DNA of 64,000 bases, from contig NZ_CP036281.1 of assembly GCF_007750395.1 (NCBI RefSeq), positions 2,565,001 through 2,629,000 of the forward strand. Reading direction: 5' to 3'. This document shows, piece after piece, positions 7,243 through 13,708 of this stretch. Position 1 is the stretch's first letter; every line of letters begins with the position of its first letter. The notes below the pieces were generated by a model, which had not been told where the DNA came from, searched no databases, and worked only from the letters and a program-made list of their open reading frames with translations. The DNA is from Polystyrenella longa. GTDB taxonomy: Bacteria; Planctomycetota; Planctomycetia; Planctomycetales; Planctomycetaceae. Made by a program: the position numbers and the translations under genes.

Positions 7243-9964
<2,722 letters not shown>

Positions 9965-10846
9965 ATGCAGCAACCTGTCATTGGCTACCATCAGGATGAA
10001 GAAAAGCATTGGGTCGCCGAACTTGGTTGCGGTCACAATCAACATGTGCGCCATGATCCTCCTTGGATGATTCGCGAATGGGTGACATCGCCTGAGGGAC
10101 GCGAGAAAATGTTGGGCCATCAACTCAACTGCGTTAAATGCGATGAGCAGGCTCCAGTAGATGAGCGGCCAGCTGTGGTGATCTCGATTCAGGTCGGAAA
10201 GCCTCAATTGATGGACGTTGACAACCCATGGACATCGGGTTTCATCAAAGAGCCGACGATGGAGCCAACGTGGTTAGGGGCGACCAATCTTGATGGGGAT
10301 GAGCAAGCCGATCTTGTCCATCATGGTGGACCTGACAAGGCTGTTTGCGTTTACTCCGCAGTTCATTATTCCTACTGGAACGAGCAACTCGCTCTTCCCG
10401 AAATGAACTGGGGCGCCTTTGGTGAAAACTTTACGGTAAGTCAGTTAACCGAGCAGGATGTCTGCATCGGTGACATCTGGTCTGTGGGCGAAACACTTCT
10501 GCAAGTTTCCCAACCTCGACAACCTTGCTGGAAACTTGCTCGTCGGTGGGAGATTAAAGATCTCGCACTTCAAGTTCAGAAAACAGGCTATACAGGTTGG
10601 TACTTTCGAGTATTGAAAGAAGGGTGGGTTCTGCCTTTGATGCCGATTCAACTTGTCGAACGACTCCATGAACAATGGACGATCGCTGCGGCCAACCAAG
10701 TAATGCACGATAATAAAACGGACTGGAAAAGTTCGTCGCAACTCGGGGCTTTGGAGGAGCTATCATCCAGTTGGAAGAAAACGCTCGCCAAGCGGGTCGA
10801 TACAGGCCAGCAACCGGACGAATCGAGACGTCTCGGGTTAGGATAA
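9965..10846 (+). CDS. DUF3565-MOSC fusion protein
   Basis: 293 residues with three parts. Residues 1-65 are a DUF3565-like domain ('MQQPVIGYHQDEEKHWVAEL', 'CGHNQHVRHDPPW', 'LNCVKCD'). Residues ~72-215 are a MOSC domain ('DLVHHGGPDKAVCVYS', 'FGENFTVSQL', 'CIGDIWSVG', and the conserved Cys in 'QPRQPCWKLARR'). Residues ~220-265 resemble the small helical domain that follows MOSC in YiiM-type proteins. MOSC proteins of the YiiM type transfer or reduce using molybdenum cofactor and confer resistance to N-hydroxylated base analogues. DUF3565 has unknown function and in other bacteria is normally a separate small protein. The fusion supports a joint role. No moco genes are nearby. Confidence 0.8.
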   Translation: MQQPVIGYHQDEEKHWVAELGCGHNQHVRHDPPWMIREWVTSPEGREKMLGHQLNCVKCDEQAPVDERPAVVISIQVGKPQLMDVDNPWTSGFIKEPTMEPTWLGATNLDGDEQADLVHHGGPDKAVCVYSAVHYSYWNEQLALPEMNWGAFGENFTVSQLTEQDVCIGDIWSVGETLLQVSQPRQPCWKLARRWEIKDLALQVQKTGYTGWYFRVLKEGWVLPLMPIQLVERLHEQWTIAAANQVMHDNKTDWKSSSQLGALEELSSSWKKTLAKRVDTGQQPDESRRLGLG

Positions 10847-10890: not shown

Positions 10891-11712
10891 CTACGGTTTG
10901 GTGCTCTTAAGTACTTTTACCAATTCGGAGAAATCATTCACCACATAGTCGGGTCTGTCGACGTTAGGATAAAGCGTCGCTCCTGGCCTTGAGATGAATG
11001 CGGTTTGTAGGCCGACGTTCTTCGCTCCCGCCAAATCCCAAGCATGCGCAGCGACCATCAACACATCACCCGGTTCGATTTTGAGATCTTTCAGAACCAT
11101 GTTGTAGGTGTCAGGGTGCGGTTTGTACTTTTTAATGCTCTCGATGGTGTATTGTTTTTCAATCAGGTCGGTGAGCCTTGCATTTCTCAATTGCGTTTCC
11201 ACCCCTATTGCGGAAGAGTTGGTCAAAGAGACAATGTAATATCCCTCAGCTTTAAGCGCTTTCAACCCTGCAGCGACGTCCGGGTGCGGAGGGAGCGAGC
11301 GAAGCGGGGTCACAATCGATTCTTTGGCCTCTTCATAATCAAGCTCAATGCCCTGCTTTTCTGCCACCATCATCAGAGCGGCTGTGCCAATTTCTCCGAA
11401 ACTGTGATAGTTGTCGCTCAACGTTTCGACCAGAGAGTAATGCAGCATGGTCGAGAACCATAATGGCAATAACTCTTCTTTCCCTCCCAAAGCTTTACCA
11501 ACGGATGTCTTTAAGGGAGCGAGATCAAGGAGTGTTTCATTCACGTCCAGAATGATGACCTTAGGGCGTGGCATAGTTATCTCCTGTTTGACATCGGGTT
11601 TGAGTTGGGAACGACCGTCTTCACTGGGCACTCTATCTTGAGCGAAAGCGGCACTCAAGCAAATCCCCAGAAACAGAATCGCAAACGCCTGTACCTTGAT
11701 TATTGTATTCAT
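10891..11712 (-). CDS. Exported haloacid dehalogenase type II-like hydrolase
   Basis: 273 residues from ATG 11712. The N-terminus 'VQAFAILFLGICLSAAFAQ' is a signal peptide, unusual for a HAD enzyme. The catalytic core begins at ~residue 50 with motif I 'IILDVNETLLDL' (nucleophile Asp), motif II 'VSLTNSSA', motif III Lys in 'IKKYKPHPDTY', and motif IV 'MLMVAAHAWDLAGA'-type sequence 'VLMVAAHAWDLAGAKN'. The DxNxT and AHxWD patterns are those of type II 2-haloacid dehalogenases; the real substrate may be different. The frame is open further upstream but without signal or ribosome binding site. It follows the AhpD-like gene on the same strand by 97 bp and is probably cotranscribed and under the same TetR control. 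Confidence 0.8.
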   Translation of the reverse strand: MNTIIKVQAFAILFLGICLSAAFAQDRVPSEDGRSQLKPDVKQEITMPRPKVIILDVNETLLDLAPLKTSVGKALGGKEELLPLWFSTMLHYSLVETLSDNYHSFGEIGTAALMMVAEKQGIELDYEEAKESIVTPLRSLPPHPDVAAGLKALKAEGYYIVSLTNSSAIGVETQLRNARLTDLIEKQYTIESIKKYKPHPDTYNMVLKDLKIEPGDVLMVAAHAWDLAGAKNVGLQTAFISRPGATLYPNVDRPDYVVNDFSELVKVLKSTKP

Positions 11713-11809: not shown

Positions 11810-12373
11810 TCAACGTACGGGTTGTTCGTCAGTGCTCCAGGCATTCTTCGCGAAGGGTTTATCCACCGGCGTCTGAGCGACATGATTGGTGTAATTGGAT
11901 AATACTTTGTAAGCCGTTCCGAGGATTACTTCCAATACCGTCTGTTTGGTGTAACCGGCCTCCAGGAACGCTTCAACGTCGCTCTCTTCGGGCCAACCGC
12001 GACTGAGATTTACCTTCTCGGCATAGACACGCAGGGCTTCCAATTTGGGGTCAGCAATCGATGTTCCGTCCCGCAAGGCCATAATGACATCCTCGGGAAC
12101 TTTGGCTCCCTGCATGATTGAGGTGTGCGCTGCCATGCAGTATTCGCAACCGTTCAGTCGGTTGTTGGTCATCGCAATGATCTGCCGTTCAGTTTCGCTC
12201 AGGTTCGTTTTGCCGAAGATTTCCGCGACTGTTCGGTAAGCTTCCAGCAACTCTGGCGATTCCGCCATGACTGCGTGTAAGTTTGGCACGTATCCATAGG
12301 CTTGTTTGCTTTTTTCTAGTACCGAAGCACTCTCACCACCGGATTCGATTGTGTGGATCTGAAAATCGACCAT
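11810..12373 (-). CDS. AhpD-like carboxymuconolactone decarboxylase-family protein
   Basis: 187-residue all-helical protein of the CMD/alkylhydroperoxidase D-like family. The redox signature 'CEYCMAAHTSIM' (CxxC plus His) is near residue 75, as in AhpD-like peroxidatic proteins that reduce organic peroxides or act as thiol oxidoreductases. Start ATG 12373 is preceded by AAGGAG at good spacing; an in-frame TTG upstream falls inside an operator and is rejected. A perfect 16-bp palindrome lies immediately upstream of the ribosome binding site, matching the one at the tetR promoter, so this gene and the HAD gene downstream are likely the TetR target operon. Cytoplasmic. Confidence 0.85.
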   Translation of the reverse strand: MVDFQIHTIESGGESASVLEKSKQAYGYVPNLHAVMAESPELLEAYRTVAEIFGKTNLSETERQIIAMTNNRLNGCEYCMAAHTSIMQGAKVPEDVIMALRDGTSIADPKLEALRVYAEKVNLSRGWPEESDVEAFLEAGYTKQTVLEVILGTAYKVLSNYTNHVAQTPVDKPFAKNAWSTDEQPVR

Positions 12374-12390: not shown

Positions 12391-12406
12391 TTGACTGATC
12401 AGTCAA
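12391..12406. promoter_or_regulatory. Palindromic operator upstream of AhpD-like gene
   Basis: TTGACTGATCAGTCAA is a perfect 16-bp palindrome placed 17 bp before the AhpD-like start codon. It shares the pattern TTGACY-N4-RGTCAA with the site at the tetR promoter (13219-13234). Size and symmetry fit a TetR-family dimer. Inference: TetR represses this operon. Confidence 0.7.
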
Positions 12407-12411
12407 TACTG

Positions 12412-12450
12412 GTTAAAAACAAAGAGGATCAAGTCTCCCCGATCCTCTTA
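12412..12450 (-). terminator. Terminator downstream of tetR
   Basis: On the minus strand AAGAGGATC / GATCCTCTT forms a 9-bp stem followed by TGTTTTT. It separates tetR from the AhpD-like operon, so the latter needs its own promoter. Confidence 0.7.
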
Positions 12451-12581
12451 TAGATGATTTCTTACAATCGTCTCTGGGCTACGACATCATGTTGCCAAGC
12501 ATACTCAATCATAAAGGACGGCAACGGATGGTCAATACTTTTCTAAAAAAATGAATCCGAAGTTCGCCACAGCGATTAGGT

Positions 12582-13163
12582 TCACGTGATCAACTGTTTT
12601 GCTTGTTCAGCAATTTGCAGCAGTGCGGTTTTTCCAAACGTCCCGCGGCCTAATACTCTGATCCCAACAATCAGGGCGACGAGCGTTTTGGCGGTGGACT
12701 GAATGGAAACGCTTTCGGGAACATCTCCACTCTCCTGACCTCGCTTGATCTGTCGTTCAAAGAACAAAGATACATCCTTGAAGGCCTCTTTGACGACGGC
12801 CTGTACTTCTTCACTATGCCGGGAACAATCAAGCGACGTGTTGACCAGCAGACACCCTTTTTGGACGGGGTCGGTTATTGAGTCATTGACTAGATAGTCG
12901 AAAAACTTCGAAATCGCTTCACGTGGATTATCAAGCTCCTCTAATTGATCGAGCTTTTTTCGACGCCGTTCCGTGTCGTACTTCAGCAAGGATCTCATGA
13001 ACAAATCATCCTTGCCATCAAACGCATTATAAAGACTACCACGTTTCAGACCGGTGGCTTCTGTGATATCTGAAATTGAAGTGGCGGCGTAGCCCTTCTC
13101 CCAGAACACAGTCATCACCTGATCGAGCACGTCCGATTCGTCAAAACTTTTTTCCCAAGGCAT
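12582..13163 (-). CDS. TetR-family repressor, possible thiol sensor
   Basis: 193 residues. The N-terminal helix-turn-helix is 'DVLDQVMTVFWEKGYAATSISDITEATGLKRGSLYNAFDGKDDL' in outline (residues ~10-55). The C-terminal ligand domain contains 'KGCLLVNTSLDCSRH' (residues ~102-116). In the well studied relative NemR a Cys in the equivalent 'GCL' position senses electrophiles and hypochlorite, so redox sensing here is a reasonable inference. The gene has a textbook promoter with its operator over the -35 (autoregulation) and a terminator. Targets: itself and the AhpD-like/HAD operon. The DNA-binding assignment is sure; the ligand is not. Confidence 0.85.
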   Translation of the reverse strand: MPWEKSFDESDVLDQVMTVFWEKGYAATSISDITEATGLKRGSLYNAFDGKDDLFMRSLLKYDTERRRKKLDQLEELDNPREAISKFFDYLVNDSITDPVQKGCLLVNTSLDCSRHSEEVQAVVKEAFKDVSLFFERQIKRGQESGDVPESVSIQSTAKTLVALIVGIRVLGRGTFGKTALLQIAEQAKQLIT

Positions 13164-13205
13164 CTTATTCGTCTCAATTACAGTAGTTATTCCAGATGTC
13201 CGTTT

Positions 13206-13234
13206 ATTATACGCTTAGTTGACCTAGTGGTCAA
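13206..13234 (-). promoter_or_regulatory. tetR promoter with overlapping operator
   Basis: Minus-strand -35 TTGACC (13229-13234), exactly 17-bp spacer, -10 TATAAT (13206-13211). The imperfect palindrome TTGACCTAGTGGTCAA (13219-13234) covers the -35 and half of the spacer, a standard arrangement for negative autoregulation. Directly visible in sequence. Confidence 0.8.
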
Positions 13235-13309: not shown

Positions 13310-13708
13310 TCAACTCAAGTGGTCGAGATCACCATTATGGTTTGGTAGCGGGGCTATTGAGGAGCTTGGATTGTCATTCGGCTGTCGCCCTTCGACTGTT
13401 CTGCCCCAGGCATCCATAGAAGATAGAACCTGCTCCAACGACCTCCCTAGAGGAGTAAGAGAATATTCTACTTTGGGAGGGGTCTCATCAAATTCCTCGC
13501 GGTGGATGATTCCATCTGCTTCGAGTTCGCGAAGCTGCGTAGACAGGACTTTGGCAGACACTCCGTTAAGTTCTCGAGTTAACTCTCCAAACCTCTGGGT
13601 GCCTTTAAATAAAAAGTGGACGATCAAAACCTTCCATCGGCCGCCAATGATCTTCAACGTCGTTTCAACAGGGCAACTGAGCGTTTTCTTCGTGTTATTT
13701 CCGGTCAT
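13310..13708 (-). CDS. HxlR-family transcriptional regulator
   Basis: 132 residues, a winged-helix regulator of the HxlR family. 'CPVETTLKIIGGRWKVLIVHFLFKGTQRFGELTRELNGVSAKVLSTQLRELEADGI' in pieces shows the family signature from residue ~11 to 70. The Cys at ~11 in 'LSCPVE' corresponds to the N-terminal Cys used for quinone, diamide or hypochlorite sensing in YodB, HypR and QsrR. The C-terminal ~30 residues are polar and low complexity. Divergent from the YcaC-like/pirin pair with a shared inverted repeat between them. ATG is preceded by TAGGATACT. Confidence 0.9.
   Translation of the reverse strand: MTGNNTKKTLSCPVETTLKIIGGRWKVLIVHFLFKGTQRFGELTRELNGVSAKVLSTQLRELEADGIIHREEFDETPPKVEYSLTPLGRSLEQVLSSMDAWGRTVEGRQPNDNPSSSIAPLPNHNGDLDHLS

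Follow-up and report, generated by a model that had tools for sequence, protein, structure and literature searches.

A TetR-type repressor very probably binds two matching 16-bp palindromes, one at its own promoter and one in the leader of the neighbouring AhpD-like gene (ahpD), and controls both tetR and ahpD, judging from the DNA and its comparison with relatives. A local thiol-type TetR autorepressor is of a known kind; the new part is the leader module. Its putative components (a combined operator and promoter, a hairpin and a leader operator) are kept in several planctomycete lineages. The original prediction of a TetR regulon with two matching palindromes is thus well supported by comparison. 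The features within the window, i.e. the whole 64-kb stretch of DNA that was analysed, are as follows.

10891-11712, minus strand: haloacid dehalogenase (HAD) type II gene, a probable read-through member; start at 11712 or 11574
11810-12373, minus strand: AhpD-like peroxidase-related gene of the CMD family (from a family search), 187 aa, motif CEYCMAAH
12391-12406, minus strand: TTGACTGATCAGTCAA, putative leader operator of ahpD (O2); 16 bp, perfectly palindromic, covering -33 to -18 of ahpD
12415-12421, minus strand: U-run of the hairpin, TGTTTTT (sequence feature)
12422-12449, minus strand: hairpin resembling an intrinsic terminator; 12 pairs, -17.1 kcal/mol, 15 nt upstream of O2
12508-12535, minus strand: promoter-like TTGACC-16-TATGAT of ahpD, at the place where relatives have a further operator (O1); right arm degraded in the window
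12582-13163, minus strand: tetR gene, 193 aa, TetR_N plus TetR_C_13, NemR/CifR-like, with Cys104
13206-13234, minus strand: tetR promoter TTGACC-17-TATAAT; 11/12 consensus letters, geometry kept in relatives
13219-13234, minus strand: TTGACCTAGTGGTCAA, putative tetR operator (minus-strand reading TTGACCACTAGGTCAA), with the left arm as -35 box

Both palindromes are exact and lie where they had been placed, and they are the only exact matches to TTGACY-N4-RGTCAA in the window. With 0.03 expected and none of 100 shuffles reaching two, a chance origin was rejected for these exact sites. It was not rejected for loosened ones: allowing up to two mismatches gave 10 matches in the window (10.3 expected), and allowing one gave 57 in the whole genome compared with 168 for a control pattern, the motif read backwards. 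Nor is the motif as such over-represented genome-wide, with four exact matches in 6,125,480 bp against ten for the control. Two of these four fall within 844 bp, which has a chance of approximately 0.002 (6 pairs x 2 x 844 / 6.1 Mb). As the mismatch-tolerant pattern is not enriched, the single-genome case rests on exactness and clustering, and the comparative case is the stronger one.

The original prediction had proposed a whole-genome search for the consensus within 100 bp of gene starts. Neither of the two non-local exact sites stood in the 100 bp preceding a recognisable gene start. A response-regulator-like ORF encloses the site at G000:733996; the one at G000:1935445 lies in a terminator-like spot, some 245 bp past an aldehyde-dehydrogenase-like gene and itself followed by a T-run. 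Inspection of all four exact genome sites therefore gave no support for a wider regulon in this genome, and the regulon looks local. The intergenic stretch behind this gene and its exact palindrome (L047:4570-4740, near 1.9356 Mb of the genome) is itself structured-looking.

Relatives were collected from two sources. TetR matches were present in 99 of 170 family genomes, of which 10 counted as orthologues at E <1e-50, the window's own genome included; a fragment in G045 and a protein in G011 (34%) were inspected and not counted. A wider search with a 12-row alignment of the TetR, covering named genomes of Planctomycetota, Proteobacteria and others, gave 80 loci, from which L166-L179 (<=35% identity) were left out, leaving 66 at 40-69% identity. 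The resulting 76 loci (the window, nine family loci and the 66 wider ones) were found with this TetR and its profile and are mutually related, so they are not independent draws; L036 and L037, L112 and L113, and others are close to each other. L089 was counted for ahpD only. The TetRs of L112, on a Chromatiales contig, and L113, on a Pirellulales contig, are 96% identical, perhaps owing to a metagenome binning error.

Palindromes recur before tetR far beyond expectation. The best match within 150 bp upstream was exact in 13 of the 76 loci, had at most one mismatch in 22 and at most two in 39, compared with 0.0, 0.14 and 1.62 expected from dinucleotide shuffles, which supports the proposed autoregulation. 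When 79 TetRs were clustered at 80% identity, 29 of the 54 groups had the operator before tetR. Its position is also kept, with 32 of the 39 matches beginning 54-74 bp before the tetR start. The tetR promoter itself is as originally described, TTGACC and TATAAT separated by 17 bp with the operator over the -35, and the same geometry recurs in relatives: 27 of 42 sites have TANNNT 16-18 bp after the first operator hexamer, with a spacing of precisely 17 bp in 26 cases; taken over every position of those upstream regions, the rate is 6.8%. The left operator arm thus appears to double as the tetR -35 box, in the window and in its relatives. There is variation around this arrangement. The operator core is TAGT in the window and GATC-like in most relatives displayed; 37 of the 76 tetR genes have no site (<=2 mismatches, 150 bp), several proteobacterial ones among them having a related core with other flanks; and G089 has no exact site anywhere, with a two-mismatch site at tetR and a one-mismatch site behind it. 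The NemR/CifR-like TetR of the window would bind TTGACY-N4-RGTCAA as a dimer, and at the tetR promoter, where the operator contains the -35 box, the bound repressor would exclude RNA polymerase and so repress its own gene.

An AhpD-like gene lies within approximately 4.5 kb of tetR in 38 of the 76 loci. Around its ORF start (-150 to +90 bp) an operator with at most two mismatches was found in 26 of the 38, compared with 22 of 444 for the same region of the other ORFs, some of which share one intergenic site. Control of the AhpD-like gene, the second part of the predicted regulon, therefore gains comparative support. The window protein carries NGCEYCMAAH within a CMD domain, and CxxCxxxH is kept in all 38 relatives, the window included; for the peroxidase-related family TIGR01926 the window protein scores 62.1 bits, under the 81.8 cut-off. 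Other recurrent neighbours in the 76 loci are an SDR (20), an AhpC/TSA redoxin (17), a type II HAD (11), a GST (10), a second AhpC-type protein (9), an alpha/beta hydrolase (6) and a small protein without a Pfam match (6). A single representative gave each family its name, except that AhpD and HAD were named after the window proteins. One neighbour, for which Pfam gave no match, we take to be DoxX-like. In G026 an exact site stands at tetR, at ahpD and at an SDR gene, even though the last two genes are some 5 kb away from tetR. Across the ten orthologue-bearing genomes, 24 of 35 exact sites (counted by hand) are outside the module. Of the ten of these that were inspected, nine were inside ORFs (leuS-like in G150 and G151) and one (G162:C4) was between two ORFs.

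A closer inspection of the ahpD leader revealed a more complex arrangement than that at tetR. The palindrome does stand just before the AhpD-like gene, as predicted, but translation most likely begins at ATG 12373, which follows AAGGAG, rather than at TTG 12406. On the minus strand the order is then tetR stop (12582), TTGACC-16-TATGAT, hairpin, U-run, O2, AAGGAG and ATG 12373. O2 overlaps no promoter-like pair in the window scan and lies between the hairpin and the ribosome-binding site. That scan found five promoter-like pairs (3.4 in shuffles) and three overlapping terminator-like elements (2.8); as these counts are close to those of shuffles, the ahpD promoter and the hairpin gain weight only from relatives. 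Placed between promoter and gene, the hairpin with its G+C stem and trailing U-run has, as a sequence feature, the form of an intrinsic terminator. The leader folds better than shuffles (z -2.8, 4/200 shuffles as good), visibly via the hairpin and the palindrome. As to a known riboswitch or an alternative antiterminator structure, no Rfam family was found in the leader, the three gathering matches in the window being tRNAs, and RNAalifold on a MAFFT alignment of the leaders recovered the palindrome only and yielded no covariation. At the place of the promoter-like pair an operator, O1, is found in seven loci (L035, L105, L107, L110, L112, L113 and L089, the ahpD locus of G026), six of which have TANNNT 17 bp further on. 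Since the promoter-like pair and the hairpin, neither of which the original prediction had noted, sit upstream of O2, control of ahpD is probably not simple promoter occlusion; a repressor bound at O2 would instead stop the elongating polymerase in the leader, past the hairpin and before the ribosome-binding site.

The hairpin recurs next to O2. We took 18 planctomycete-type loci with an O2 behind tetR or at ahpD; they were hand-picked after hairpins had been seen in some, and include three without one. Twelve of the 18 have a hairpin with U-run (MFE <=-5) within 60 nt upstream of O2, compared with 13 of 360 shuffles and 0 of 42 regions before tetR-promoter operators; at MFE <=-3 the figures were 14/18, 41/360 and 1/42. 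An unselected count of plain stems followed by T, just upstream of all operator-like sites of 77 loci, was positive for 11 of the 32 sites that lie 600-800 bp past the tetR start, for 1 of 30 in front of tetR and for 1 of 26 elsewhere. The distance from stem end to O2 is narrow (15-21 nt, mean 17.1, sd 1.7, n=14), whereas that from the tetR stop to the stem end is not (73-160 nt, mean 103, sd 24, n=13). The stems differ in sequence (GGGGAC/GTCCCC, GGGAG/CTCCC, GAGGAGC/GCTCCTC, AAGAGGATC/GATCCTCTT). Where the hairpin is clear, the U-run ends some 8-12 bp before O2, as read by eye. Moreover, TANNNT with TTG 15-19 nt before it was not seen between the stem end and some 15 nt past O2 in any of the 18 loci, and thus ahpD transcripts should cross both hairpin and O2.

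The hairpin is not universal. A proper hairpin is missing in L036 and L037, whose TetRs are 98% identical and whose O2 is itself degraded, and in L104; that of L105 is weak, and the 14 hairpin loci fall into only five groups at 80% TetR identity. A scan of 397 genomes of the class found TTTT 5-14 nt before an exact operator in 35, which is no enrichment by itself, as the reversed control also matches many genomes. The module was recognised in G000, G014, G026 (two), G162, G726 and G746; in 30 loci from the scan many other matches were inside ORFs. One of the scanned loci, L213 (G052:C51:3755), has a very strong hairpin and U-run 12 nt before TTGACCAAATGGTCAA, in a genome whose best match to this TetR is no close relative (E 2e-8). 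In L035, L039 and L102 the letters after O2 resemble the first codons of ahpD, and an ORF BLAST found no ahpD, as if the gene had decayed while hairpin and O2 stayed.

How hairpin and O2 would act together can be read in several ways. With close to an even chance, the hairpin is a plain terminator of the tetR or upstream transcript, O2 is an ordinary roadblock or promoter operator, and their spacing is inherited rather than functional. A hairpin with U-run within 160 nt behind tetR is also present in 12 of the 62 loci that lack this O2, as a plain terminator would in part predict, and in 10 of the 17 that have it, and hairpin loci are confined to few clades; a read-through arrangement is also known for E. 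coli nemRA-gloA, to go by the title of a reference in PMC5297802. Yet the distance of the hairpin is fixed to O2 and not to tetR, the stems differ in sequence between loci, and no promoter-like pair was found between hairpin and start in the 18 loci. Also against this reading, operator-promoter, hairpin and O2 are all present at ahpD of G026, which has no tetR directly upstream and is separated from tetR by some 5 kb with opposite-strand ORFs.

Another reading is a repressor-gated terminator, a refinement of the best explanation that we hold only tentatively; an ordinary terminator plus roadblock is likelier than true gating. Here the repressor on O2 would hold polymerase over the U-run of a leaky terminator that is efficient only then, and release of the repressor would let polymerase read through into ahpD, termination being the inducible step. 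An elongating polymerase extends some 14-18 bp ahead of its active site. As the gap between U-run and O2 fits this front edge, a repressor bound at O2 would stop polymerase near or on the U-run. The enrichment before O2, in the selected and the unselected counts, the narrow stem-O2 distance and the absence of a nearer promoter-like pair all speak for gating, as does the intact arrangement in G026. Against it stand the choice of the 18 loci, the loci that lack a hairpin, the small number of groups and the failure of RNAalifold to recover the hairpin. Moreover, the O2 of the G026 SDR gene has a T-run at the usual distance but no hairpin, the hairpin at ahpD of the same genome may be the terminator of a same-strand ORF that ends 174 bp before O1, and no report of a roadblock coupled to an intrinsic terminator was found in open-licence full text.

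DNA looping between O1 and O2 that would close the ahpD promoter is improbable. Their starts are 93-107 bp apart in the seven loci (L089 93, L107 94, L105, L110 and L113 101, L112 102, L035 107 bp), but these spacings do not follow the helical repeat, and the window has a degraded O1, with none evident in L038-L042, L102 and L103. Least probable of all is that another regulator, be it a different TetR-family protein or the neighbouring HxlR protein, binds the palindromes: TTGACC-N4-GGTCAA-like operators are common to several TetR families, e.g. RutR, but these sites travel with this tetR across phyla, and only 4 of the 76 loci have a relative of that HxlR protein close to tetR.

We return to the TetR encoded between the two palindromes as their probable ligand. 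Both of its Pfam domains are over curated cut-offs (TetR_N 48.3 bits; TetR_C_13 42.9 bits), the latter being the family to which NemR itself presumably belongs. By sequence the closest solved structure is CifR (E 1.4e-20), and a fold search with the AF2 model (mean pLDDT 88.5) also ranked CifR first, with E. coli NemR in rows 8 and 10. Cys104 aligns with Cys106 of NemR and is kept in 77 of 79 TetRs, the window included; the exceptions are L163 and L165 (one N, one gap). At the position of NemR Lys175, by contrast, all 79 have Arg (Arg173 in the window), so the NemR-type lysine is absent. In NemR, Cys106 is critical for the response to reactive chlorine, Cys21 and Cys116 matter for other electrophiles, and a Cys106-Lys175 sulfenamide is proposed, according to the part of PMC5297802 available to us. 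With Arg173 in place of the lysine, this proposed switch need not apply here. In the Pantoea repressor AltR, Cys100 is described as essential for release by thiosulfinate (PMC13178969, in the part available). The window TetR has the TetR_N and TetR_C_13 pair, the cysteine at the Cys106 position and a GACC-N4-GGTC-type palindrome at its own promoter. Given the match of Cys104 to Cys106, the roles of the NemR and AltR cysteines and the likeness of the nemR palindrome, we expect by analogy an inducer of thiol or electrophile type. CssR offers a counter-example: in this TetR-type stress repressor the cysteines do not serve as redox switches, as stated in the portion of PMC8176726 that was available. 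If an oxidant or electrophile reacted with Cys104, the repressor would leave its sites, and the levels of TetR, the AhpD-like peroxidase and, via read-through, the HAD protein would rise.

For the HAD gene the case is more indirect. The prediction had put the AhpD-like gene and an exported HAD under joint control; the AhpD-like half is supported, and HAD is probably co-transcribed by read-through, which we hold with less confidence than control of tetR and ahpD. The interval from ahpD to HAD in the window showed no terminator-like site, and tetR, ahpD, SDR and HAD run in one direction in L036 and L037. No operator (<=2 mismatches, -150 to +90 bp of the start) was found at any of the 11 HAD genes; in the 200 bp before the aligned HAD start, one of the 11 (L132) has a two-mismatch site. 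Export depends on the start chosen: ATG 11712 gives a signal-like N-terminus, but ATG 11574, behind CAGGAG, is also plausible. Relatives in L036, L037 and L142 have a signal-like N-terminus, and those in L118, L132 and L137 have none.

Further genes of this stretch, which looks like an oxidative-stress island, may be noted. An HxlR-family regulator (13310-13708, minus strand) with a cysteine near its N-terminus (CPVETTLKIIGGRWK) is divergent from genes for a YcaC-like hydrolase and a pirin. Thiol sensing is attributed to the DUF24 family, and this protein is perhaps a second thiol sensor beside the TetR. At 7243-10846 the cluster adjoins a KatG whose N-terminus is signal-like and a MOSC protein that begins with DUF3565.

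Among open-licence papers, no report on planctomycete TetR/AhpD regulation was found, and none of the six operator 16-mers matched in their full texts. These results provide a cross-phylum branch of thiol-type TetRs, for which we found no study, with an operator and a promoter geometry, and with AhpD-like, SDR, redoxin, HAD and GST genes as likely targets; its induction can now be tested with reporters. Should the distance between hairpin and operator prove functional, it would couple repression of initiation to premature termination in a simple manner and possibly serve as a compact part for synthetic circuits.

Lastly, we compared this system with known ones. E. coli NemR-nemA-gloA is likewise a TetR repressor of its own operon with detoxification targets. 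The nemR palindrome (TAGACCGACTGGTCTA), which ends 14 bp before the nemR start, is built as the window sites are, and the AF2 model of the window TetR aligns with 4yze. However, identity is 19%, so the window TetR is not classed as a NemR orthologue, and besides the Lys175/Arg difference the neighbours differ: an old yellow enzyme and a glyoxalase in NemR, compared with AhpD-like, SDR, HAD and redoxin genes here. The part of PMC6790063 available to us gave no NemR operator. Pseudomonas CifR, an epoxide-released repressor (PMC8244358, from the portion available), is the best solved-structure relative by sequence and fold, and the cysteine of its RGCLV aligns with Cys104. It differs in its approximately 26% identity and in being divergent to the cif operon; no epoxide hydrolase was found in the examined part of the window. 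Two other candidates were rejected as matches because their operator or targets differ, in the available parts of the papers: CssR (PMC8176726) and an Acidovorax TetR (PMC4204640). AltR of the Pantoea alt cluster is, according to the available part of PMC13178969, a NemR-like autorepressor with an inverted-repeat operator that controls a thiol-stress cluster; its operator, CAATCTAC-N6-GTAGATTG, has another sequence and length than those of the window. A parallel outside the TetR family is offered by ECF41 sigma factors with their COE genes, again a dedicated local regulator with similar target classes, i.e. CxxC carboxymuconolactone decarboxylases, oxidoreductases and epimerases, as described in the part of PMC3426412 available. 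There the regulator is a sigma factor, whereas in the system described here it would be a repressor.
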